From an uncultured Erysipelotrichaceae bacterium (GTDB lineage: Bacteria > Bacillota_I > Bacilli_A > RFN20 > CAG-826): a DNA stretch of 38,715 nucleotides. The stretch spans positions 1 to 38,715 of the forward strand of contig CAMGZU010000006.1 of NCBI GenBank assembly GCA_946183085.1. Direction: 5' to 3'. A program made the translations under genes and the position numbers. Positions 59 to 12,293 of this stretch are shown here, in pieces. How positions within the stretch are numbered: the first letter of the stretch is position 1; each line of letters begins with the position of its first letter. Under the pieces are notes generated by a model. It did not search any database. It was not told the DNA's origin and saw only the letters and a list, made by a program, of their open reading frames with translations.

Positions 59-541
59 ATGAGCGAAGAAAAGAAGATCCGAAACGCGAATCGCGGCAAC
101 TTCTCCATCAAGAGGACCGTTTTGATCGTCGACGACGAAGAGATCAACGTCGAGATCCTTACTACCATCCTGGAGGAGGATTTCCACGTCCTCAAAGCCT
201 ATGACGGCAAAGAGGCGTTGGAGCTTCTCCAAAAAGGCGATCAGAAAATCGACATGGTCCTTCTGGACGTCTTCATGCCATTCGACGGCCGCGAGGTCTT
301 GAAGATCCGTCAGCAAAACCCCGAGCTCAAGCGCATCCCCTTCATCGTTTGCACCAGCGATAAAAACATCGAGAAAGAGTGCTTCTACCTTGGGGTCAAC
401 GATTTCATCAAAAAACCCTATGAGAACCCCGACATCATCGTCGCGAGGGTCAAGAGGATGATCGAGCTTTACGAAAATACGCCAAGCAGTTCGACGCCAA
501 CTTCCCCGAAGTCAAAAAGGACATGGTTCTCCTTTCGGTGA
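59..541 (+). CDS. Response regulator receiver domain, N-terminal part of a frameshifted REC-GGDEF-EAL protein
   Basis: A phosphoacceptor receiver domain occupies about residues 18-135. The acidic pair Asp25-Asp26 (LIVDDEE), the phosphorylated Asp70 (LLDVFMP), the conserved Thr of CTS near 99 and the Lys119-Pro120 pair are all present. After about residue 139 the reading degenerates into a Ser/Thr/Pro-rich tail (SSSTPTSPKS) and stops. The frame one base back continues smoothly from the same point into a GGDEF-like domain. The natural product is therefore probably a single 549-residue REC-GGDEF-EAL protein, with one base missing near the A-run at 474-477. If the break is real, the cell makes a stand-alone receiver. 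The HPt gene downstream suggests a phosphorelay input. The sensor kinase is not in the window. Confidence 0.85.
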   Translation: MSEEKKIRNANRGNFSIKRTVLIVDDEEINVEILTTILEEDFHVLKAYDGKEALELLQKGDQKIDMVLLDVFMPFDGREVLKIRQQNPELKRIPFIVCTSDKNIEKECFYLGVNDFIKKPYENPDIIVARVKRMIELYENTPSSSTPTSPKSKRTWFSFR

Positions 542-1707
542 ACCGCTTCCGTCTCATCAATGAGCTTTATGGCCATGAATTCGCGGACAAAATCCTTCTT
601 TCGATTACGGGGGAGCTCAGCGACTTCGTCAGCAAATGCAAAGGGCTGCTCGGCAAAGAGAGCGGTGGGACCTTCCTCCTTTATTGCGAGCACCAAGAAG
701 ACTACGAAGCCTTGCCAAAGAAATTAGAAGAAGCGGTGAAGAAAGACGCAAAAGACATCAACGTGTCCTTCAAAATCGCCGTCTATCCCTTCGTTGACCC
801 GTCTTTGGAAAAAGAAATCGTCATCGACCGCTTGAGCGATACCGCGGACACCTTAATCAACGACTATGGCAAGAATGTCGCCGTCTATAGCCATGAGGCC
901 CAGACGGCGAACCTCCACAAAGAAGAGCTGATCGCCGCCTTCCCCGAAGCCTTGAAGGAAGAGCAGTTCCAGCTTTATTTCCAACCCAAATACGAAATCC
1001 AAGGCGAAAAGCCCCACCTCACCAGCGCGGAGGTTTTGATCCGCTGGATCAGCCCGAAGTTCGGCTTCGTCTCGCCCGGCGAATTCATCTCGCTTTTCGA
1101 AGAAAACGGCTTAATCTGCCAATTGGACGCCTACATCATCCAAAAGGCTGCGGAGCATATGAAGCGGTGGAAGAAGGTTTATGGCGAATACGTCCCCTTA
1201 TCCATCAACTTATCCCGCGTGAACCTCTACCGCCCGAACCTCGTCGAAGAGATCATCGGCTACATCTCCTCCAATGGCGTGCCGCGCGAGAAGTGCTACA
1301 TCGAGATCACCGAATCGGCTTTCGTCGAAGACGCCAAAGCGGTCATCCCGGTCATCGACAAGATCCGCCAAAGCGGCTTTAAGATCGAGATCGATGATTT
1401 TGGCTCCGGCTATTCTTCTTTCGGCGCGCTGGCCGACCTCCCCTTCGATGTCTTGAAGATCGACATGCAGTTCATCCGCGCGATGGAGAAGAACCCCAAA
1501 GTCAAAGACATCGTCAAGATGATCATCAACTTGGCAAAGACGTTGAACGCGACCGTGGTCTCCGAAGGCGTGGAGACGAAACAGCAATACGATTTCCTCC
1601 AAGAGATAGGCTGCGACATCATCCAGGGCTATTACCTCTCCAAGCCTTTGCCCTTAAAAGAATTCGAGGAACTCATCCAAAAGGAGTTTGTGACCAATGG
1701 ACGTTAA
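523..1707 (+). CDS. Degenerate GGDEF + intact EAL c-di-GMP phosphodiesterase (C-terminal part of the split regulator)
   Basis: Hydrolysis of cyclic di-GMP is the likely activity. The GGDEF domain (residues 1-125 of this frame) keeps the fold signature (VNRFRLINELYGHEF), but the catalytic motif reads SGGTF at 47-51, so cyclase activity is unlikely. The EAL domain (about 140-390) has every catalytic position I can check: Glu170 in EVLIRW, Asn229 (SINLS), the ITES glutamate at 264, Asp291-Asp292 (DDFGSGYSS), Lys312, Glu348 (SEGVET) and Gln368 (QGYYLSKP). Coding in this frame clearly begins before the ATG at 523, from about 478 (YAKQFDANFPEVKKD), which supports fusion to the upstream receiver. 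The stop overlaps the HPt start by 11 bases, indicating coupled translation. Confidence 0.85.
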   Translation: MVLLSVNRFRLINELYGHEFADKILLSITGELSDFVSKCKGLLGKESGGTFLLYCEHQEDYEALPKKLEEAVKKDAKDINVSFKIAVYPFVDPSLEKEIVIDRLSDTADTLINDYGKNVAVYSHEAQTANLHKEELIAAFPEALKEEQFQLYFQPKYEIQGEKPHLTSAEVLIRWISPKFGFVSPGEFISLFEENGLICQLDAYIIQKAAEHMKRWKKVYGEYVPLSINLSRVNLYRPNLVEEIIGYISSNGVPREKCYIEITESAFVEDAKAVIPVIDKIRQSGFKIEIDDFGSGYSSFGALADLPFDVLKIDMQFIRAMEKNPKVKDIVKMIINLAKTLNATVVSEGVETKQQYDFLQEIGCDIIQGYYLSKPLPLKEFEELIQKEFVTNGR

Positions 1708-2047
1708 GAAGTTTTACGAGGAGATCGGCGGGAGTTACCAAGACGCCTTGAACATCATGATGAACGACGCCCTCATCGCGAGGATGCTCACTAAATTCAT
1801 CGCCGGGGATTCCGTGGATAAGCTTTTCGCCGCTTACGAGGCGAAGGATTATCGCTCCGTCTTTGCCGCGAGCCACGCCCTAAAAGGCGTTGCCGGCAAT
1901 CTGGCCTTAAGCCCAATCTTTCAATTGGCTTCCAAAATAACCGAGGCCACCCGCTATGACGATGGAGTGAACCTCGACGCTGAGTTTGCCGAACTCAAAA
2001 AGACCTACGAACTCATTAAGGCAAAGCACCAAGAACACATCGCCTAA
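1697..2047 (+). CDS. HPt histidine phosphotransfer protein
   Basis: This 116-residue, mostly helical protein matches the histidine-containing phosphotransfer family in length and motif. The sequence ASHALKGVAGNLAL (about 58-71) is the classic HPt signature, with His60 as the phosphoryl acceptor. It starts inside the last codons of the EAL gene, so the two are made together. HPt proteins pass phosphate between a hybrid kinase and a receiver, so its natural partner here is the REC domain encoded at 59. The operon therefore reads as phosphorelay control of c-di-GMP breakdown. Family assignment is strong; the pairing is inferred from position. Confidence 0.85.
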   Translation: MDVKKFYEEIGGSYQDALNIMMNDALIARMLTKFIAGDSVDKLFAAYEAKDYRSVFAASHALKGVAGNLALSPIFQLASKITEATRYDDGVNLDAEFAELKKTYELIKAKHQEHIA

Positions 2048-2170: not shown

Positions 2171-3244
2171 ATGGACCGCTCCGTGAAAAACGCTCTCTAC
2201 AAATGCAGCACCAAAGGATTGATTCAATTGCTCAATGACCCGAAATACGCCAATAACCCAGCCCGGCAATACCAGGACATGATCAATTACATCGCCCGCC
2301 ACGAGATGTATGGCGGCAAGACCAAAGGCGAGCTGTTTGAGATGATCCACGTCGCGCGAAACGAACTCCTCGCGCAATATGGCGAGAAGCGCAAAGACAA
2401 CAAAGAGAAGCTTCCATATGACAATTTCGGCAACGTCAGCCCCAGGGACGCTCAGCGCATCAAGAACTTCCTCCGCGATCCTTCGACCGCGGCCATGAAC
2501 GAATTCGCCGCGCTTGGAAACGTTAACCTTGCGGCCAATGGCGAGGACGAAGAGGAGAAGGAATACCTGAGGCGCCTTCAGATCAACGCCCAGATGCTTT
2601 CGAAGCAAGTGGAGGTCATGGCCGATACCCAGAACACCCACTTCAAAGGAAGCGAAGCCCGCACCGACATCTTGACCCGCCTCGAGAAGAAAATGCCCGA
2701 GGAGGATGAAAACGCGCTCGACTCGCTGAAGAAAGCCAACGGCAATTTCTTCACCAGGCTCTTCCGCCGCCCTTCTCAGGAATACAAAGCCTTCGAGCAA
2801 TCCTTCAAGCAATTCCGACAGACCGAAAGCGTCTTAAGCGGCAACGTCGAAGACTTGGAAAAGAAGACGACGGCCTACCTCAAGCATTTGATGCCAAACT
2901 TCAAATACGCGAAGGACATGAAGAAAGAGGAAATGCTATCCGCCCTCCCCAAAGGGCAAAGGGCCCGCGCCTCTTTCGCGATGGACGTCCTCGATTCGAT
3001 CCGTGAGAACAAGGAAGCGAAGCCTTACGTGGATAACGTCGAGAACGCGATCAATGGCCGCCCGATCAAGGAGATCGAAAAAGCCCCCGCTCAAGCGGAT
3101 CCGGCGAAGCAGCAGGAGTTCCAAAACGAGATTGCCGCCAACATCGAAGAACCCAAGGTCGAGGAAGTGAAGAACGAGGTAAAAGCCGAACCCGAAAAGG
3201 TCGAGGAAAAACAAGCCGAGGCCAATAACGAGATCGCGAACTAA
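2171..3244 (+). CDS. Unknown protein, WWER/TSxEY paralog 1
   Basis: I do not recognise a known family. The start at 2171 is preferred over an in-frame ATG at 2120 because AGGAGG (2157-2162) sits 8 bases before it and because 2120 lies within the promoter element. The 357-residue product has no signal peptide or membrane segment, is charged and mostly helical, and ends in a Glu/Lys/Ala-rich tail (about 305-357). From residue 190 it carries a region (NGNFFTRLFRRPSQEYKAF, then a block with TTAYLKHLMP and KGQRARASFAMDVLDSI) that aligns with the C-termini of the proteins at 3897 and 9589. The tail motif QQEFQNEIA resembles QDDFQKQLA in the second paralog. Probably a cytoplasmic, lineage-specific protein of unknown role. 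Confidence 0.8.
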   Translation: MDRSVKNALYKCSTKGLIQLLNDPKYANNPARQYQDMINYIARHEMYGGKTKGELFEMIHVARNELLAQYGEKRKDNKEKLPYDNFGNVSPRDAQRIKNFLRDPSTAAMNEFAALGNVNLAANGEDEEEKEYLRRLQINAQMLSKQVEVMADTQNTHFKGSEARTDILTRLEKKMPEEDENALDSLKKANGNFFTRLFRRPSQEYKAFEQSFKQFRQTESVLSGNVEDLEKKTTAYLKHLMPNFKYAKDMKKEEMLSALPKGQRARASFAMDVLDSIRENKEAKPYVDNVENAINGRPIKEIEKAPAQADPAKQQEFQNEIAANIEEPKVEEVKNEVKAEPEKVEEKQAEANNEIAN

Positions 3245-3261
3245 AGCCAACAACAAAAAAG

Positions 3262-3290
3262 AAGCTCTGACGTCAAATCAGAGCTTTTTT
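3262..3290. terminator. Bidirectional terminator between paralog 1 and the lipoprotein gene
   Basis: AAGCTCTGA (3262-3270) pairs perfectly with TCAGAGCTT (3278-3286). It has an A-run on the left and a T-run on the right, so it can serve both converging genes. Confidence 0.85.
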
Positions 3291-3307
3291 GATTCTTTGT
3301 TGTTTGT

Positions 3308-3775
3308 TTATGGAAGCATGTGGCCCGAGATCTCGGTGATGCGGACGTTGTAGACGCAGACGCCCTTGAGCTCGTAGCTCGCCGTGTTGGCGAAGCTTCC
3401 TTGCAGGGAATCCATCGTCTTATAGCCATCCTCTTCCTTGCCCGCGACGAAGCGGAATTCGACGTCGCTGACCTCAAACGGATCATCGAAATCAAAGGTG
3501 AAATCGGCGTTGATCCCTTTGCAGTTTTTCACGCTGACCTTGCATTTGCCCTTGATGTCGGAGGAGAAGAGCTTTCCTTTGGCGGGGTTGGGGTAGAGGC
3601 TGAAGCTGATGAGTGTCCCCGTGAAATTGCCGTTAAGTTCTTTGTCGCTCATCCTGCCCAAATCAATGTAGGATGCCGCGTTTTCGACGGTGAGGGCGGC
3701 GCCTTGGTTGCTGTTCGTGCATCCGGCGAGAAGAAGCGCCGAACACATCGCCATGATGGTTTTAGAGAGTCTCAT
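3308..3775 (-). CDS. Small predicted lipoprotein of unknown function
   Basis: The product is 155 residues from the ATG at 3775. An in-frame GTG further up is rejected because the lipoprotein signal begins at MRLSKT and GAGG lies 8 bases before that ATG. The signal has a basic start, a hydrophobic core and the lipobox LLLAGC with the lipidated Cys at residue 19. The mature part is about 135 residues, beta-rich in appearance, with several Lys/Asp/Phe stretches (DFTFDFDDPFEVSDVEF) and two spaced cysteines. I recognise no domain. It is transcribed against paralog 1 and shares its terminator. It should sit on the outer face of the cytoplasmic membrane. Confidence 0.75.
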   Translation of the reverse strand: MRLSKTIMAMCSALLLAGCTNSNQGAALTVENAASYIDLGRMSDKELNGNFTGTLISFSLYPNPAKGKLFSSDIKGKCKVSVKNCKGINADFTFDFDDPFEVSDVEFRFVAGKEEDGYKTMDSLQGSFANTASYELKGVCVYNVRITEISGHMLP

Positions 3776-3838
3776 AGAAATACCTCGTTTTTCTTTTGTA
3801 AGTCTATAATGCACGCGCGTTTTAGAAAAAGATTTTTG

Positions 3839-3872
3839 TGTGGCAATTCTATGGCAGAGCGACTGCTATCCT
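3839..3872 (+). promoter_or_regulatory. Shared promoter element, copy 2
   Basis: TGTGGCA (3839-3845), six bases, TGGCA (3852-3856), ten bases, TATCCT (3867-3872), then 24 bases to the ATG at 3897. Here the two TGGCA units form an exact direct repeat 11 bases apart. The GG-N10-GC spacing also fits a sigma-54 core promoter. Confidence 0.6.
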
Positions 3873-3896
3873 ATTCCCAACAATAAGGGGATCACC

Positions 3897-6470
3897 ATGA
3901 GCTACAGAGACCAATTATCCAAAATGATCCAAGAGATCAAAGACTACAAAAAAGTTTTTGACACCAACTACGAAGAAGCCCTCAAATTCAAAAACACCTT
4001 GCCGATGGCCCAAAAGGCCTACCATGTCCACAGCTTTTTCCGGAGCTTGAGGAATTCGTCGGCGGAGTGGTTCGGCAGCAAAGAGGCCTATGAGGCCTTC
4101 CTTGCCAAACACCCGGACCTTTTCCCAGACGGCAAAATGATTCATGTCCCCAATTTCGAACCCTATGGCGACATCAAACTCCCGGATGTGGATTTTGAAA
4201 AGATCTTCGATGCGCTCGACGAAGAATTCAAAGAAAACCCCCAGAAGCTTGAGGAACTCTACGACCACGCCGACCCGAAAATCCGCGAAGTGAATCACCC
4301 GATGCAGGGCGTCATCGATTCCATCAAGGAAGACGCGAGGCGCTTCTATGAAGAGGGTCCGCTCCTCAATGAGGTTTTGGAGACGCTGGACTATGCCAAC
4401 AACGAACTCGTTGAGAAGACGGGGGAACACCTTCTCGATAACGCCATCGACGCCAACGCCAATGCCCGTAGCGTCATGGCCGTCAAACACTTCGATACCT
4501 TCGTGGAAGAGAATGGCCTCGACAAGAAGAAGATCGTCAATCGCTCCCACCGCGATGCGACCATCAGCCCCAATTTTGCCAGCAAAGGCGTGTCCTACTC
4601 GGATTATAAGCCCTTCCTTTCGATGGAGGTTCATTATCCAGAAGACTTCAAAGAGAAGCTCTTGAATTTGGATACCCTTTTGCAAGACGAAGGCCTTTTG
4701 ACGAAGGCCCAGGGTGGCGAATCCGGCAACAAGGAATATGGCCTTGCCGATTATTTCCAGGCCAACTATACCCTCAAGAAGGCGCTTACCGACTACACGA
4801 AGCTGGCCAACGACGAGGAGAAGCAAGCCGCGCTTCTTAACATCCGCAAACTGACCCAAGACGTCAAAGATGTGACCGCGAAATACGAGAAGGTCTTCAA
4901 TTACATCAAAGAGAACTTCGATTTGGATAACATCTCCATGTCGGCCAACCTCTATTCGGGCCGTCCATCCTCCGTTCCCGATGGCGACCTTACAAACTGG
5001 AAACCGAACCTTCCGGAGAAATTTGACTTCGAGAATTCGCAGCCCGTCATCTTCTTAAGCGGCTTTACCCAGCTAAAGGCCGCCTGCCAGATTACGAACT
5101 CCTCCCTCAAAGACTATTTGGACCATCCCCATAAAACCTACCTTGACGGCGCGAAAAAGCTCGCCGAGCATGACGACAATCTCCTTTACATCACCCCCGC
5201 CCAAGAACCCAATCTTGGCAAGCGCATGGCCCGCGCTTTCTGCGGCCCATCCAACCTCTATGGCGGTCTTTATGGTTATAACATGGCGGGCGGTCGTGGC
5301 ATGGAGTTCCTTTATAACACCGTTTCGGACAAGGCGAACCAAGACGCCAACATCATAAAATCGTCCGTCATCAAAGAATACAGCACCATGTACGGCCATG
5401 ATCCCGCCGTTCTCTTTGATCCCACCACTGGGGCGAACATCCAAAACCTTAAGAACCTTTTTGCCGCCGGCGATCAGTTCGAGCACCTTTACGAAGCGAG
5501 CGATCGTTATTTCAACGAGAATGGCGATTGTGGCTGCAAAGTGAAAGATTATCCCGCCGCCGTCAAAACCCATGGCAATACCTCCGTCGCGGACGAATAC
5601 CGCAGAATCATGCAGACGGTGAAGGACTTCAATGACGAACGCGCCAACCTCGGCCGCAATCCCCAGCAGTATTATCAGCAAGGGAACTTGAATCCCTCCG
5701 TGAGCTCCGGCGCGATCCTTGCCGCCGGAAGGGAATACTTCGTCGACTATATGAGGGAGAACAACCTTTCCTTGGCGAGCATCCAAGACGCGAAGCTTAG
5801 GAATGAGGTCATCGATTTCATCAACGACCCGATCGCGGCCTATACCAAGAAAAACGGCAAGTTTGATTTGGATGATGGCCCCGAACGCGACAACGAAGTC
5901 TCCTTTAGCTTCCGGAGAACCTGGGAATATAAGATCGGCAAGAACAACACCTTCTTCGAGAAGTTCGCGGAGCATAACCGCAAACCCGGCGGCTACAACA
6001 CCGGCAAGACGATGGCCAAGATCTTATCGGACAACAAGGGCTCTTGGTGGGAACGCCTCCGTGGCAAGACCTCCAAGGAATATAGCGCCCTTCAGAAGAT
6101 CGCCAAGGCCTCCATCGATCCTACTAGCCGCACCAAAGGCGACAAAGAAGCGATGTATGTCGCGGCGAAGGCCTACAAGCAGTACAAGATGCCCGAAGGC
6201 ACCAATTTCGACAACTTGAGCAAGACCGCCAAGAAGCGCATCGAGTTCTGCGATTCGATCATCGATGCTTACGAGGCGGAGAAGCGCGAGAAGGAACTCG
6301 CGAATCAGCCGCAGCCCGTCGTCGAGAACAACAACATCATTCCGCAGGATGACTTCCAGAAACAGCTTGCGGTCGATATGGCACCCAAGGAAAGCAACAA
6401 GGTTCAGGAAGCCCCTGCCAAGGAAGAAAAAGCCAACGAGAAAGAGAACGTCATTCCCAACGAACTTTGA
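3897..6470 (+). CDS. Unknown 857-residue protein, WWER/TSxEY paralog 2
   Basis: I do not recognise a known family. The start at 3897 is chosen because AAGGGG lies 6 bases before it; the ATG at 3840 falls within the promoter element. The product is large, soluble and helical at the N-terminus, with no signal peptide or membrane span. The middle (about 350-600) is richer in aromatic residues and glycine (NLYGGLYGYNMAGGRG) and has a CGC cluster near 548, so it may be a globular enzyme-like or binding domain. From residue 715 it carries the shared C-terminal region (GSWWERLRGKTSKEYSAL, then AAKAYKQYKMP and SKTAKKRIEFCDSIIDAY). It ends in a Glu/Lys/Asn tail. It stops with TGA, which shows that TGA is not reassigned. 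Confidence 0.8.
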   Translation: MSYRDQLSKMIQEIKDYKKVFDTNYEEALKFKNTLPMAQKAYHVHSFFRSLRNSSAEWFGSKEAYEAFLAKHPDLFPDGKMIHVPNFEPYGDIKLPDVDFEKIFDALDEEFKENPQKLEELYDHADPKIREVNHPMQGVIDSIKEDARRFYEEGPLLNEVLETLDYANNELVEKTGEHLLDNAIDANANARSVMAVKHFDTFVEENGLDKKKIVNRSHRDATISPNFASKGVSYSDYKPFLSMEVHYPEDFKEKLLNLDTLLQDEGLLTKAQGGESGNKEYGLADYFQANYTLKKALTDYTKLANDEEKQAALLNIRKLTQDVKDVTAKYEKVFNYIKENFDLDNISMSANLYSGRPSSVPDGDLTNWKPNLPEKFDFENSQPVIFLSGFTQLKAACQITNSSLKDYLDHPHKTYLDGAKKLAEHDDNLLYITPAQEPNLGKRMARAFCGPSNLYGGLYGYNMAGGRGMEFLYNTVSDKANQDANIIKSSVIKEYSTMYGHDPAVLFDPTTGANIQNLKNLFAAGDQFEHLYEASDRYFNENGDCGCKVKDYPAAVKTHGNTSVADEYRRIMQTVKDFNDERANLGRNPQQYYQQGNLNPSVSSGAILAAGREYFVDYMRENNLSLASIQDAKLRNEVIDFINDPIAAYTKKNGKFDLDDGPERDNEVSFSFRRTWEYKIGKNNTFFEKFAEHNRKPGGYNTGKTMAKILSDNKGSWWERLRGKTSKEYSALQKIAKASIDPTSRTKGDKEAMYVAAKAYKQYKMPEGTNFDNLSKTAKKRIEFCDSIIDAYEAEKREKELANQPQPVVENNNIIPQDDFQKQLAVDMAPKESNKVQEAPAKEEKANEKENVIPNEL

Positions 6471-6477
6471 TCTCAAG

Positions 6478-6511
6478 AAGAAGCGCGCGAGAAAAAGCGC
6501 GCTTCTTTTTT
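6478..6511 (+). terminator. Terminator of paralog 2
   Basis: AAGAAGCGCGC (6478-6488) is perfectly complementary to GCGCGCTTCTT (6497-6507), followed by T residues. Confidence 0.9.
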
Positions 6512-6517
6512 CGAGAG

Positions 6518-6549
6518 TGTGCCACTTTTGTGACAACTCGTGTGATAAC
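6518..6549 (+). promoter_or_regulatory. Shared promoter element, copy 4 (no gene attached)
   Basis: TGTGCCA (6518-6524), six bases, TGACA (6531-6535), eight bases, GATAAC (6544-6549). It matches the elements upstream of the three paralogous genes, but no long reading frame follows. Confidence 0.45.
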
Positions 6550-6551
6550 CT

Positions 6552-6653
6552 ATGGCCGTAAAAGGGGTAAAGGGCGATGGACACAGGCCTCCTAGGAGGT
6601 CGATGGTCCCATCCACCATTGCAAAAAAAGCTGCCTTGCCGGGCAGTTTTTTT
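6552..6653 (+). ncRNA. Candidate small structured RNA or remnant leader
   Basis: About 100 bases lie between a promoter-like element and a strong terminator. They contain two possible hairpins: GGCCTC/GAGGTC around CTAG (6586-6601), which includes the perfect palindrome CCTCCTAGGAGG, and ATGGT/ACCAT (6603-6619). CCTCC could pair with Shine-Dalgarno sites. An SD-like AGGGG and an ATG at 6577 lie at the same distance from the element as in the paralogs, but that reading frame runs through the terminator. It could equally be the scar of a deleted fourth paralog. No known RNA family was recognised. Confidence 0.3.
6623..6653. terminator. Bidirectional terminator
   Basis: CTGCC (6631-6635) pairs with GGCAG (6642-6646), flanked by seven A on the left and seven T on the right. 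On the minus strand it ends the gene at 6690-7475; on the plus strand it ends the putative short transcript from 6550. Confidence 0.8.
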
Positions 6654-6689
6654 GTTGGGTTTCTCTTATTGGAAAAAAGAGCAACGGGT

Positions 6690-7475
6690 TTATTCTTTTT
6701 TGCGTTTCAAAACCAATTTGTAGATCGAAGTCTCTAGGAAATACATCAAGAAGGCCAAGCCCGCGATGACCGCGAGGTAACCCAAAAGATAAACGAAGAA
6801 CCCGGCTTCTCTTTGAACGACATCCACCAAAGGAAGCGTTGTGATCTGAAGGGGGTTGAGGAAGAACATATCGATCCCTTGCGGATAGAATGCCAAGTTG
6901 ATAGAGACGGCGATCGTGGCGACGATGGCGAAAAGGACCAAACTCCTCCAATAGGTGTGGATGGTGATCCTTTTGCGGTTCCAGACGAAGACGAAGACGC
7001 CGAGGATGACCTGCGAGCCATGATGGACCATCGTCTGGATGTTGATGAAGATGAATCTGGTCATGACCATGTCGGTGTAGATGCAGACCCCAAGTCCGGC
7101 GAAGAGGATCAAAAACGCCAGGAAGCCTATCGCCCCGTCGGCGAGGAAGCCATCGCGCTTGACGAAGATCAAAATCGGAAGGAAATAAAGAACCATCGAG
7201 CAGAGATGGAAGGGGAAGTCATAAGGGTCATATTCCCAATACGAGGGATTCCCATAATGGAAGGTTTTGACGAGCTGCTTCAAGACTTCAAAGACGAGCA
7301 AGACGATCCAAAAGAAAAGCAGGATCCTCTTGTAAGTCTTTTCACTCGCGTCTTTGAAAAAGAAAGACAAAAAGAAGGTCATCCCTAAGATGAGAATGAG
7401 GCAGAGAATATGGAACCAGGAGAACATCCCGGGTATTTCCATCTCCCCCTGAAAGAAGTGAAGTACCTGTTCCAC
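6690..7475 (-). CDS. YwaF/TIGR02206-type integral membrane protein
   Basis: A polytopic membrane protein of 261 residues with about seven hydrophobic spans. The pattern of conserved residues, including FHLCSM in the third span and the tyrosine/tryptophan-rich NPSYWEYDPYDFPFH just before it, fits the YwaF (TMEM164-related) family, whose biochemical role is not established. The GTG at 7475 is only a few bases beyond the TATAAT-like box (7486-7491 on this strand), leaving almost no leader. An internal ATG at 7442 follows a GGGGGAG and is a plausible alternative start, giving 250 residues. It is divergent from the membrane protein at 7511. Confidence 0.7.
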   Translation of the reverse strand: MEQVLHFFQGEMEIPGMFSWFHILCLILILGMTFFLSFFFKDASEKTYKRILLFFWIVLLVFEVLKQLVKTFHYGNPSYWEYDPYDFPFHLCSMVLYFLPILIFVKRDGFLADGAIGFLAFLILFAGLGVCIYTDMVMTRFIFINIQTMVHHGSQVILGVFVFVWNRKRITIHTYWRSLVLFAIVATIAVSINLAFYPQGIDMFFLNPLQITTLPLVDVVQREAGFFVYLLGYLAVIAGLAFLMYFLETSIYKLVLKRKKE

Positions 7476-7510
7476 GATTAAGAGTATTATACAAATATCG
7501 AAATCGGTTT

Positions 7511-8440
7511 ATGAAAGAAAAGGGGCAAAGGGGAATCACGAACGCGAGGGCCATCAACAAGATGCGTTGCATCGCCGGCCTCAGCATTTGCGCGCTGGTC
7601 ATCGTTTTGACCGCGGTCACGGTGGTTATGAACATTGCCGACGTCTATAACGAAGAGACGCCAGAGGCTGGGCTTGGCACCTTAAGGATGTTCACGACCA
7701 TCTCCAACGTGATCGCCGCGGTGGCCGCTTTTGCGTGCCTCCCTTTCCAGATTGACGGCTTGCGGAGAAACAAATACAAACTCCCTGAGTGGATCGTCAC
7801 TTTGATGTACGTTGGGGCAGAGGGCGTTTTCTTGACGTTTATCACCGCCGCCACCCTCATCTCCGCGACCCAGGGCTTTGTCACGACGATGCTCCTCAAA
7901 TCGAACCTCTTCATGCACACGATCAACCCGATCTTCATCACGTTGCTTTTCACTCGTTTCATCGCCGACGCTCATATCTCTTTCCGCCGGTCCTTCTTCA
8001 CTTTGATCCCCGTCACGCTTTACGCCTTCCTTTATTTCATCATGGTCTTCGTGGTGAAGGAGTGGCGCGACCACTACATGACCAACGCCTTCATGCCATG
8101 GCCCGTCTCTTTGGTCTTGGTTTTGGCCGTGGCTTTTGGCTTATCGCAGCTTCTCCGTTTCCTCCATAACCTCACCAATGCCCACGTGAAGCGCGTCATC
8201 GCCCGTTATTATCTGGAATCGCCGGATTACGATTATCCGCGCGTGAGCGATGCGATCGCCCACCTCGCCCAAGTCGAGGCGGCCTATTACTATGTGGGCG
8301 ATGACATCTACATTCCGACGGACATCATCGAGCTCTTGTCGAAGCGCTACTCCGCTTCCGGCCTTCCGCTTGATATCCAATACGACATTTATTTGGAGAA
8401 TTATCTGGCCGTCTTAAAACGCGATGGGAAACAGAAATAG
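7511..8440 (+). CDS. Polytopic membrane protein, possibly Pr6Pr-like
   Basis: The 309-residue product has about six membrane spans (roughly residues 20-220) and a cytosolic C-terminal part of about 90 residues (ARYYLESPDYDYPRVSDA onward). The order of features in the membrane part (RMFTTISNVIAA, then EGVFLTFI, then MHTINPIF) recalls the Pr6Pr / FAR-17a-AIG1-like group, but this is a weak resemblance and no activity can be assigned. The last 17 bases overlap the acyltransferase gene, so the two are probably co-translated and may act on the same envelope component. No strong SD is seen before the ATG. Confidence 0.6.
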   Translation: MKEKGQRGITNARAINKMRCIAGLSICALVIVLTAVTVVMNIADVYNEETPEAGLGTLRMFTTISNVIAAVAAFACLPFQIDGLRRNKYKLPEWIVTLMYVGAEGVFLTFITAATLISATQGFVTTMLLKSNLFMHTINPIFITLLFTRFIADAHISFRRSFFTLIPVTLYAFLYFIMVFVVKEWRDHYMTNAFMPWPVSLVLVLAVAFGLSQLLRFLHNLTNAHVKRVIARYYLESPDYDYPRVSDAIAHLAQVEAAYYYVGDDIYIPTDIIELLSKRYSASGLPLDIQYDIYLENYLAVLKRDGKQK

Positions 8441-9512
8441 AAACGGTGGACTCGATCTTTTGCGGGTGCTCTGCATGGCGCTCATCATCCTTTTTCACCT
8501 GGTCAAATATGGCGTTGGCGTCGAAAACATGGGTGACACGGCCCATGGGGTTTACGCGGGCTTTTTCTATGGCTTAGACAAGATCCTCACGACCGTCTTC
8601 TTCTTCACCTCGTTCTACTTTCTTTCGGAGAACACGCATCTTCGTCTTGGCAAAGTCATCTCCTTTCTGATTGAGGCCATTTTCTTCTCGCTTGTTTTTG
8701 GCTTAATCGGCCTCGCCACGCGTTTCTTTGAGCCGACCCCGATGTTCTTCCTGAACCTCTTCTTCCCGGTCTCTACGGTCGTGTGGTGGTTTGTGACGAC
8801 CTATTTGGTGATGTATCTTCTTTCGCCTCTATGGAATTGGATCATCGCAAAGATCAATCTCTGGATTCATTTGGCCGTGATCGTCGTGATGCTCGCTTTG
8901 TGGATCGTGCTCCCGCTTGTGGGTGTCCTCAGCGAAGACTACACCCTGGTCTTCCGGATGCTGATGCTTTATTTCTTAGCGGCCTTATTGCGGAAATACG
9001 CCCCAAAGCTCCAGATCAATTTCTTCGTGGGCTTGGCCATTTGCATCGTCACCTATGTCATGGCCTTCTCCATCTATTTCTTCGTGAATGGGCAAGGCTT
9101 CGTCGGCTTCTATGCCATTCTCCGCGCCAACAACCCGCTTCAGATCGTCATGGCGCTCGCTTTGTTCTACGCCTTCAAAGATATCCGGGTGGACAGCAGG
9201 ACCGTCCTCCCGCTTCTTTATCAGGCGAATTTCACCGTTTATCTCGTCCACGATCATCCTTTCATCCGCGACCTTCTTTGGAAGAGGGTTTTTGATCTCT
9301 CTTTCTTCACTCAGCCGATCTTCCCGCTTTATGCGATCGCCTTCACGATCGGGGTCTATGTCTTCTGCTTCCTCTGCTTCCTTGCCTACCGCTACAGCAT
9401 TGCCCTTCTTTTAAAGAAGCCTCTTGCCCTTCTTAACGAAAGATGGCTTTCCAAAGCCGACGCCTTCTTGAATCGTCCCTATCTCGATAAAGCGCAAGAA
9501 AAAGAAGCCTGA
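8424..9512 (+). CDS. Acyltransferase 3 family membrane protein
   Basis: A 362-residue integral membrane protein with about ten spans. The N-terminal signature GLDLLRVLCMALIILFHL (about 8-25) is the acyltransferase 3 motif, with the catalytic-type histidine in FHL. Near the end ANFTVYLVHDHPFI matches the conserved YLVH region. Family members transfer acetyl or other acyl groups to exported polysaccharides or peptidoglycan-linked sugars, with the donor on the cytoplasmic side. The real acceptor here is unknown. It overlaps the upstream membrane protein gene. The next gene, 77 bases on, has its own promoter element. Confidence 0.8.
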   Translation: MGNRNRNGGLDLLRVLCMALIILFHLVKYGVGVENMGDTAHGVYAGFFYGLDKILTTVFFFTSFYFLSENTHLRLGKVISFLIEAIFFSLVFGLIGLATRFFEPTPMFFLNLFFPVSTVVWWFVTTYLVMYLLSPLWNWIIAKINLWIHLAVIVVMLALWIVLPLVGVLSEDYTLVFRMLMLYFLAALLRKYAPKLQINFFVGLAICIVTYVMAFSIYFFVNGQGFVGFYAILRANNPLQIVMALALFYAFKDIRVDSRTVLPLLYQANFTVYLVHDHPFIRDLLWKRVFDLSFFTQPIFPLYAIAFTIGVYVFCFLCFLAYRYSIALLLKKPLALLNERWLSKADAFLNRPYLDKAQEKEA

Positions 9513-9525
9513 TGCTCTTTTTGGG

Positions 9526-9559
9526 TGTGGCAGAATCGTTGCACCCAATCGGTTATAAC
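9526..9559 (+). promoter_or_regulatory. Shared promoter element, copy 3
   Basis: TGTGGCA (9526-9532), six bases, TTGCA (9539-9543), ten bases, TATAAC (9554-9559), then 29 bases to the ATG at 9589. TGGCA-N6-TTGCA is an exact match to the sigma-54 -24/-12 core; TATAAC could instead act as a vegetative -10. Confidence 0.6.
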
Positions 9560-9588
9560 TATGTCATAACGAAATAGGAGGATCTCTT

Positions 9589-11118
9589 ATGCCGGAATAC
9601 AAACCGCTCACCCAAGCCGAAAAGGAGGCGATTCTCGCCCGTCACCACTATATCGTTGACGAGCTCAACAAGGCTTTAAACGGCGCCCTCAAATACGACG
9701 ATGACGCCATCATCGCCAAAATGAACGACCCGAAGGAAGTCGCGCTTTATCGCATGTTCGAAGAGCATAAGGCCAGGGAAGCCCAACGCCGATTGATCAT
9801 CAAGAATTTGAAAAACAAGTATGGCGAGAGCACCGTCAACGACAACCCGATGGCCCGCACCTTCAAATACCATTTGAAACTCGATGGCAGCGAAAAGAGC
9901 AACGCCTATAACGAAAAGCTCTATCAGGAATACATCTCCAACCCCGATAAAATCGTTTACCGCGAATTCAACAAACTCCTCAAGATCAACCCTCAGCAGA
10001 TGATCAACATGGGCGACGATCCCCAGAAGATGGGCGAGTTCTACATGGAGAACAGCAGCATGTGCGAAAACGCCTTTGTCATCTCCGCCGTCCTCACCAA
10101 TAGCGAAGCGCACACCACCCCGGCGATGCGCAATGCCGTCAATTCTTTGAAGAAGCCGCTCGAAACCCTCAACGAATATGGCAACACCGTCAAACATAGC
10201 GGCTTGGATGGCATGGCTTGCCCTAAGCTCACGAGGGAGCAGGCCGCGCTTGCGATGACCGCCCCGATTTTCATGAACCAAGGCGAACCCGATCTTAACG
10301 AGGTCGTCTTCGGCCAACTCCTCCCGATGGACACCCCAGCCCACTATTTTCAGAAATTCAAAGACTATGGCTTGGAAACCAACGATCCGGAGTTCTTCAC
10401 CAAATACAAAACGGTCTTAACCGATCCGGAAACAGGCAGGCGCACCGAGGTGAGCCCCGAGGAGATCTTTGAGATGGACAATCCCAACGTCCGTTTCGAA
10501 CGAAGGAGCAAGGACGAGATCTTCGAACTCAAATCCGTCAACCGGGTCTTCCAGGACAAATACGCCCAGAAGTTCCAATCCCGCATCGCGACCAAACTCA
10601 ACCAAGCCACCTTCAGCGCCGATCGGCTTGCCGACGATCGCGTCGGCGGCTGGTGGGAGAGGAACATCTTCCGCAACACCTCGCCCGAATGGAAAGACTT
10701 CATCCAGGCCTTTAAGGATTTCAATAACCCCGAGCATCCGAACTATTTGAAGAAGGACGTCCTCCGCCCGAAGGCGGAAGCCTACCGGCAACACCAGAGG
10801 CGCCAAGGTTATAACTCCTTGGAAGATATGAAGGGAACCTCCTTGAAGCGCGGCACCTTGGCCCAAGCGACGATCGACGTCTGCGACGAGCTCGACGCCC
10901 AAGAAGAAGGGCTCCGCGAAGACATCAACATCGAGATCGACACCGGCCTCAAAAACGGCAAAGTCGGACTCATCATCAGCTCCCAAGAGGTGGATATCAT
11001 GGGAGATGACCTTGCTCCAGCGCAAAAAGCTCCGGATGCCAGCAAGAACCTCAACGTCCAGAAAGAGAAGGACAACAACCTCATCAAGGACGACGAGCCA
11101 AAGCTCGAGATGAATTAA
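9589..11118 (+). CDS. Unknown 509-residue protein, WWER/TSxEY paralog 3
   Basis: I do not recognise a known family. An AGGAGG lies 7 bases upstream of the ATG. The protein is soluble, highly charged and mainly helical, with no signal peptide or membrane span. The C-terminal region from residue 353 (GGWWERNIFRNTSPEWKDF, then PKAEAYRQHQRRQG, then LKRGTLAQATIDVCDEL) aligns in order with those of the genes at 2171 and 3897. The N-terminal two thirds do not obviously match the other two, so this looks like a common C-terminal module on different bodies. The last 40 residues are rich in Asp, Lys and Asn, as in the paralogs. Three copies within 9 kb suggest tandem duplication and divergence. Confidence 0.8.
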   Translation: MPEYKPLTQAEKEAILARHHYIVDELNKALNGALKYDDDAIIAKMNDPKEVALYRMFEEHKAREAQRRLIIKNLKNKYGESTVNDNPMARTFKYHLKLDGSEKSNAYNEKLYQEYISNPDKIVYREFNKLLKINPQQMINMGDDPQKMGEFYMENSSMCENAFVISAVLTNSEAHTTPAMRNAVNSLKKPLETLNEYGNTVKHSGLDGMACPKLTREQAALAMTAPIFMNQGEPDLNEVVFGQLLPMDTPAHYFQKFKDYGLETNDPEFFTKYKTVLTDPETGRRTEVSPEEIFEMDNPNVRFERRSKDEIFELKSVNRVFQDKYAQKFQSRIATKLNQATFSADRLADDRVGGWWERNIFRNTSPEWKDFIQAFKDFNNPEHPNYLKKDVLRPKAEAYRQHQRRQGYNSLEDMKGTSLKRGTLAQATIDVCDELDAQEEGLREDINIEIDTGLKNGKVGLIISSQEVDIMGDDLAPAQKAPDASKNLNVQKEKDNNLIKDDEPKLEMN

Positions 11119-11207: not shown

Positions 11208-12293
11208 ATGAACGTGGTCTTGGAATATCTTTTGCAGAACTGGGCGATGATCCTCGTGCTCATCGCTTTCGCCATCATGCTCAAAATCACGGTCTTTCTC
11301 GACAAGAAAACCGTCCACCGCATGTACATCCTCATCGGCGCCGTCTTCCTCCTTTCGATCATCGTTTACACCGAGTTCCATTTGATGGAGATCAACGAAT
11401 ATCCTTCGGTTCGCGCTTGGATGATCGCCATCCGTTATAGCGCAACCCCCTTCATTCTCGGCCTCATTCTCTTCGCGTTGGTGAAACGGGCGCGTTGGTA
11501 TGTTTTGCTTCCCGCCGCGCTTCTTGCCGTCTTCAACATCGTCTCCGTTTATACGGGCATCGTTTTCTTCATCGATGATGCAGGCGAAATGCAGCGTGGC
11601 GCCCTTGGTTATCTGCCTTATATCGGCGTTGCCGTCTATAGCGTCGTCCTCGTCATCGTCTTGGTCCTCCAAAGCAACAAACGGCCTTCCGAGATCATCC
11701 CGATCGTCTTTTTGGCCTTCACCTTTGGCTCTGGCTTGGTTCTCCCTTTCATCGTCGGCAAGGACTATTCGAAGATCTTCTGCACGACCATCGCGATCGG
11801 CCTATTCGTCTATTACGTCTTTTTGATTCTCCAGTTGACCACAAAGGACGCTTTGACCGGTTTGTTAAACCGTCAATCCTTCTACGCTGAGATCCATAAG
11901 AACTCCAAAGACATCACCGCGGTCATCTCGATTGACATGAACGGCTTGAAGACCATCAACGACAACGAAGGACACCTAGAAGGCGACTTGGCTCTCACCA
12001 CTTTGGCGTCTTGCTTTTCAAGGGCCGTCACCATCCGCCAATCGGTCTACCGTTTGGGCGGCGATGAATTCATGGTTGTCTGCCGCAAGACATCGATGGA
12101 GGAAGTAGACCTCGTGATCGAAAGGATCCGCCGCTACGTCGGGAGCACGCGCTATCGCTGCTCCATCGGCTATTGCTATTCCGACAAAGAGAACAAATCC
12201 ATCAAAGAGATGGTGAAGGTCTCCGACGAGATGATGTACGCCGACAAGGCTCATTATTACGAAACGACCGGCGATCGGCGCCGCTCGAACTAA
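11208..12293 (+). CDS. Membrane-bound diguanylate cyclase (GGDEF)
   Basis: This protein makes cyclic di-GMP from two GTP. Residues 1-208 form about seven membrane spans without a recognisable ligand domain. Residues 212-355 are a complete GGDEF domain: DALTGLLNRQSF, metal-binding Asp243 in IDMNGLKTIND, and RLGGDEF with GGDEF at 284-288. The inhibitory RxxD site expected just before the motif is absent (TIRQ at 275-278), so product inhibition through that site is not expected. Together with the EAL enzyme at 523 it gives the window both synthesis and breakdown of c-di-GMP. The leader has no clear SD, so the exact start is uncertain. Confidence 0.88.
   Translation: MNVVLEYLLQNWAMILVLIAFAIMLKITVFLDKKTVHRMYILIGAVFLLSIIVYTEFHLMEINEYPSVRAWMIAIRYSATPFILGLILFALVKRARWYVLLPAALLAVFNIVSVYTGIVFFIDDAGEMQRGALGYLPYIGVAVYSVVLVIVLVLQSNKRPSEIIPIVFLAFTFGSGLVLPFIVGKDYSKIFCTTIAIGLFVYYVFLILQLTTKDALTGLLNRQSFYAEIHKNSKDITAVISIDMNGLKTINDNEGHLEGDLALTTLASCFSRAVTIRQSVYRLGGDEFMVVCRKTSMEEVDLVIERIRRYVGSTRYRCSIGYCYSDKENKSIKEMVKVSDEMMYADKAHYYETTGDRRRSN

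Follow-up and report, generated by a model that had tools for sequence, protein, structure and literature searches.

A C-terminal domain common to dissimilar soluble proteins

Why should soluble proteins with bodies of very different length end in the same C-terminal domain and acidic tail? The question is raised by a stretch of 38,715 nucleotides from an uncultured Erysipelotrichaceae bacterium (contig CAMGZU010000006.1, assembly GCA_946183085.1; hereafter the window), in which the proteins encoded from positions 2171, 3897 and 9589 have in common a helical C-terminal domain of ~85 residues, (W/F)(W/F)ER…TSxEY…Y…R, and, behind it, a disordered acidic tail. From sequence analysis we propose that this domain is probably a recruitment or secretion signal, read by a dedicated type IV secretion system (T4SS) without a role in conjugation in gut and rumen Bacillota, and that the proteins bearing the domain (members) are the cargo of that system. 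The three members and their parts are as follows.

2171..3244, + strand: member 1, 'short' class, 357 aa; soluble 189-aa body, C-terminal domain and acidic tail
2738..3013, + strand: C-terminal domain of member 1 (NFFTRLFRRPSQEY...R...), from profile search and profile-profile match to the other classes
3119..3145, + strand: motif FQNEIAANI, of the FQxxL class, within the acidic tail of member 1
3897..6470, + strand: member 2, 'big' class, 857 aa; helical 712-aa body, C-terminal domain and tail
6033..6284, + strand: C-terminal domain of member 2 (GSWWERLRGKTSKEY...), from profile search and AlphaFold2 model helices
6354..6380, + strand: tail motif FQKQLAVDM of member 2, a predicted short helix (residues 817-827, low predicted local distance difference test (pLDDT) score) in a disordered tail
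9589..11118, + strand: member 3, 'M1' class, 509 aa; 352-aa body, C-terminal domain and tail
10645..10890, + strand: C-terminal domain of member 3 (GGWWERNIFRNTSPEW...), from profile search and AlphaFold2 model helices
10960..10998, + strand: M1-type tail motif KVGLIISSQEVDI, at the position held by FQxxL in other classes

The open reading frames exist with the starts given in the first-pass annotation, and an AGGAGG Shine-Dalgarno sequence ~8 bases 5′ of the member 1 ATG supports the start at 2171. That annotation put the bodies at about 190, 715 and 350 residues, close to the 189, 712 and 352 found, and its order of tail elements, (W/F)(W/F)(E/T)R, (T/P)SxE(Y/W), a helix with Y, a helix with R and an acidic tail, agrees with our alignment. 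Neither a signal peptide nor a transmembrane (TM) segment is predicted for member 1, and members in general are soluble, with no predicted TM segments. The description of the three as unknown proteins also stands: Pfam, NCBIfam, PHROG and PADLOC gave no family above cut-off, PDB sequence searches gave none for the proteins or the domain, and Foldseek comparison of the full-length 9589 and 3897 models against the PDB returned no match better than E=0.02, and TM-scores were very low. A survey restricted to open-access papers found no description of the domain family.

A family was claimed as well, and further members were indeed found. By a profile (A1) built from five tails of the window's own genome, this 1.32-Mb draft contains at least seven members, two of them new (E=2e-13 and 2e-9), and ten genomes of the genus contain ~75 domain proteins, with 5-11 copies in nearly every domain-positive genome (two in G019); genome-wide counts come from searches of the genomes. 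The ~75 proteins were gathered from 56 stretches plus the window, and the addition of relatives brought the set to 140 unique members. All but one of these (139/140) have a single copy of the domain, which is always C-terminal and is followed by a median of 73 residues. Five body clusters emerge: M1 and short with 50 members each (~378 and ~193 aa, respectively), big with 15 (~714 aa), short2 with 13 and M2 with 10. In profile-profile comparisons, the domains of all pairs of body classes match with 98.2-99.9% probability; the bodies of most class pairs match with 0.3-7%, the exceptions being short/short2 (97.5%) and M2/big (70% over 99 residues). The domain is common to mostly unrelated soluble bodies, and its similarity is far beyond chance.

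AlphaFold2 models of 9589 and 3897 (mean pLDDT 79.2 and 79.9) place the domain helices at residues 355-360, 366-378, 389-405 and 416-452 in the former and at 717-722, 727-740, 750-764 and 776-802 in the latter. The starts of these four main helices, relative to the first, are 0, 11, 34 and 61 versus 0, 10, 33 and 59; the predicted helix order is identical in the two domains, and the tail is predicted to be disordered. Of the common fold implied for all three tails, the models cover two, for which the helix order holds.

Members are linked to a T4SS

The first-pass annotation suggested that the common tail serves the targeting, docking or secretion of varied soluble bodies, and the shared domain and its linkage to, and co-occurrence with, T4SS genes support this reading. 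The present analysis adds the identity of the machine, encoded outside the window, and the FQxxL tail element. Clustering of all neighbours revealed that in four genomes members are directly preceded by an operon encoding a giant surface protein, a pilin (T4SS_pilin PF18895, E=1e-9), a lipoprotein, a VirB6-like protein and VirB4 (885 aa; P-loop_TraG PF19044, E=4e-21). The VirB6-like protein, polytopic with 5-6 TM segments and without a Pfam match, is so called from its position and topology alone.

Members lie directly 3′ of virB4 on the same strand in genomes G003, G004, G008, G020, G026, G146 and G147 and in Clostridia loci. The gaps are often −4 to ~150 bases, virB4 is the upstream neighbour in 15 cases, and M1, the class of member 3, is the one most often directly downstream of it. 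Five members occupy the locus downstream of virB4 in G146 and G147, and in G147 the giant surface protein, pilin, lipoprotein and VirD4 (PF02534, E=2e-54; TraG-D_C, E=2e-32) stand on the other side of the locus. VirD4 was detected in 11 of the 13 genomes searched. In the genome from which the window comes, contig G000:C63 encodes VirB4 together with the VirB6-like protein and the lipoprotein, and contig G000:C68 encodes VirD4, behind a lipoprotein and another member, from which it is two genes away. Genomes have 1-13 members, some in the T4SS locus and most scattered.

A frameshift splits VirB4 at G004:C13:2491-5141 (L082, L189), reflecting a sequencing error or a pseudogene.

The domain co-occurs with one VirB4 clade

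The domain is present in 12 of 224 genomes of the bacterial family (2-12 copies each) and has no copies in the other 212. Cognate VirB4 accompanies it in 11 of these 12, counting an end fragment beside members in G026, and is found in no domain-free genome of the family (Fisher 9e-18, without kinship correction). Bit scores are 1587-1989 for near-complete cognate copies, followed by 741 for the next best (G186) and 374 for a fragment in G062. On an EF-G tree, domain and VirB4 were gained or lost jointly at least 2-3 times within the genus.

A query with the 9589 protein found no related loci; one with VirB4 did return loci, and a scan of 84,980 species genomes for VirB4 relatives gave 34, in metagenome-assembled genomes titled Erysipelotrichaceae, Bacilli, Acholeplasmatales, Clostridia and Lachnospiraceae, a large share of them from ruminants. 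Whole-genome domain searches behind 25 of these loci, in named genomes with a related VirB4, found the domain in 13/13 genomes with VirB4 identity ≥74% (1-13 proteins each) and in 0/12 with identity ≤69%. Domain-bearing systems fall into a single clade of the VirB4 tree (support 99/100). In some related T4SSs outside this clade, virB4 is likewise followed by soluble proteins, but these share C-terminal modules of other kinds; such variation of the module from machine to machine would be expected if the machine recognises it.

Two such groups were observed. Proteins after virB4 in a Clostridia sister T4SS clade (L185:12112-15687, L186:12775-20298) share an HxxRxxxWKxFHPIDxxRExRAI module at the C-terminus and have acidic tails, and soluble proteins after virB4 in Lachnospiraceae T4SS loci (L194:13907-17854, L197:13865-20945) have basic, Arg-rich C-termini (such as RRR, GRR, GRQR and SRRH).

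A conjugative role of the T4SS was rejected because the two relaxase families searched, relaxase PF03432 and MobA_MobL PF03389, gave no match in any of 20 domain-bearing genomes, other MOB classes being outside that search.

A conserved motif in the acidic tail

The tails, with 21-28% D+E, contain a short motif, FQxx[LVIM] (FQxxL), in 66 of 83 non-M1 cases, where ~2 would be expected from shuffled tails; its median position is 38-41 residues before the C-terminus. None of the 48 M1 tails has FQxxL, and their alignment reveals KVGLIINAxEVD or (K/R)EPxLSxxxVE instead. An 81-aa acidic protein with an FQQQLAEDI motif and without the domain is encoded downstream of a T4SS-linked member in a T4SS operon (L083:576-821, − strand), and is possibly a tail decoy, an adaptor or a regulator.

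Proposed mechanism

Genomic linkage together with all-or-none co-occurrence with one T4SS clade points to a T4SS recruitment or secretion signal. Members are best read as T4SS substrates whose C-terminal recruitment domain would work like XVIPCD or BID, and we infer that domain and tail bind VirD4 or VirB4, that members are exported and that they act as effectors. In the cytoplasm, the VirD4 coupling ATPase or VirB4 would read the folded ~85-residue domain, presumably helped by the short motif in the disordered acidic tail. The soluble body would then pass the VirB6-like channel and travel past the pilin and the giant surface protein, either leaving the cell or entering one in contact with it. 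Since the bodies match no described family or fold and recurrent immunity genes are lacking beside them, a eukaryotic target (rumen protists or the host) or a non-toxic role is as likely as bacterial killing.

Comparison with known systems

XVIPCD is the C-terminal domain of ~120 residues of X-Tfe effectors, substrates of the bacteria-killing T4SS of Xanthomonadales (PMC6536674). In both cases a C-terminal domain of similar size sits on unrelated N-terminal bodies and is followed by a polar tail (glutamine-rich in XVIPCD, D/E/N/Q-rich here), VirD4 is present, and one gene lies in the vir locus with others scattered. However, the window proteins have no significant Pfam match (E≤1), in a library that presumably includes an XVIPCD model; furthermore, the machine is of monoderm type with a giant surface protein, adjacent immunity genes do not recur, and the bodies are not recognisable hydrolases.

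The BID domain and tail of Bartonella Bep effectors recruit effectors to VirB/VirD4 (PMC6509941, PMC8714903) and likewise combine a C-terminal delivery domain with a tail. Here, in contrast, the tail is acidic, the hosts are Gram-positive, and significant Pfam or PDB-chain sequence matches are lacking; Foldseek, run with the full-length 9589 and 3897 models, gave no PDB match.

The T4SSs of Patescibacteria are described, in the passages of PMC12102498 consulted, as monoderm systems with VirB2-like pilins (searched with PF18895), mostly without a relaxase and thought to be repurposed. Those passages mention no C-terminal signal domain or substrate family, whereas the present systems belong to Bacillota and have a giant surface protein and tagged candidate substrates. 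The 89K T4SS of Streptococcus suis has been proposed to be a Gram-positive protein exporter; unlike the present systems, it is carried by a pathogenicity island and is reported to have a subtilisin-like protease as its substrate, and no shared tag family appears in the excerpts of PMC12857230 that we consulted.

Alternative explanations

Several observations weigh against members being T4SS cargo. G006, a 95% complete genome, has nine domain proteins and VirD4, and VirB4 was not found in it; the co-occurrence is partly due to shared ancestry; and Rep_trans (PF02486) occurs in 5 of the 20 domain-bearing genomes, on contigs other than those with T4SS genes. The neighbour survey found no immunity gene, small-protein family or lipoprotein family that recurrently adjoins members, and the bodies resemble no known enzyme or toxin (Pfam; Foldseek of 9589 and 3897). 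Furthermore, just five body clusters recur across Bacilli and Clostridia, a variety smaller than that of typical effector sets, which also fits accessory components.

Accessory components are the subject of the alternative that survives best, in which members would be non-secreted factors docked by the domain to the cytoplasmic face of the T4SS, acting in gating, energy supply, chaperoning or pilus control. It accounts for the same co-occurrence and linkage as the cargo explanation, and the few, conserved, helical body classes and the lack of recognisable toxin domains agree with it. However, an accessory factor would usually be encoded once, within the operon, whereas a genome may have up to 13 paralogous members, many of them distant from the T4SS locus, with copy number and class mix differing between genomes; we consider this explanation unlikely.

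A second alternative makes members exported structural or surface parts of the T4SS appendage, such as adhesins or pilus partners, instead of effectors. The pilin and giant surface protein share the operon, and the bodies are long and helical; yet the family searches show no known anchors or cell-wall domains in the bodies, and there are more copies than one appendage needs, which leaves it with little probability. Least probable is that members are paralogues confined to a lineage, with a tail that serves dimerisation or scaffolding, and that shared ancestry alone ties them to the T4SS: kinship does contribute to the co-occurrence and G006 would fit, but members directly adjoin virB4 in both Bacilli and Clostridia loci, the domain is absent from the 12 searched genomes whose T4SS lies outside the cognate clade, and the joint gains or losses recur within the genus.

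Early ideas of type VII secretion and of shell or encapsulin cargo were set aside once the T4SS linkage emerged, and a toxin/immunity reading was rejected when the neighbour check gave no recurrent partner.

Neighbouring genes

The gene adjoining member 3 and the sites of two protein groups mentioned below are:

11208..12293, + strand: membrane-anchored diguanylate cyclase, ~7 TM segments and GGDEF (E=5e-24)
L147:14119-14655, L150:972-1505, L151:5150-5683, L083:41-571: TetR-like regulator
L042:529-828, L048:459-884, L066:2-304, L084:4399-4719, L090:3906-4247: small proteins resembling ribosomally synthesized and post-translationally modified peptide (RiPP) precursors

Multi-TM GGDEF relatives recur beside members (L057, L060, L070, L079, L156), an association only. 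Together with the two-component pair and GGDEF protein located by the G147 T4SS, they suggest control by cyclic di-GMP. Directly upstream of member 1 (window 59-2047) are genes for a response regulator, a partial GGDEF-EAL protein and Hpt, and related EAL genes are found near members in L043 and L073. The TetR-like regulator (~177 aa, MNQKQLETLRKNNEES...), assigned by eye, recurs next to virB4 or T4SS-linked members. Small proteins with a RiPP-precursor-like leader (...LTDDQLEAVSGG...) occur near members in several genomes.

Implications

With somewhat less assurance than for the proposed role of the domain, we favour a broader picture in which gut and rumen Bacillota would have widespread relaxase-free, protein-delivering T4SSs, each machine clade having its own C-terminal sorting module in a lock-and-key co-diversification. 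If our proposal is true, Gram-positive bacteria would have in this domain their first known tag of the kind. Effector T4SSs in Gram-positives are an open question, which this family makes directly testable because it offers a defined machine, a defined candidate signal and ~140 candidate substrates. The family may thus serve as a handle for finding substrates in uncultured gut and rumen bacteria.
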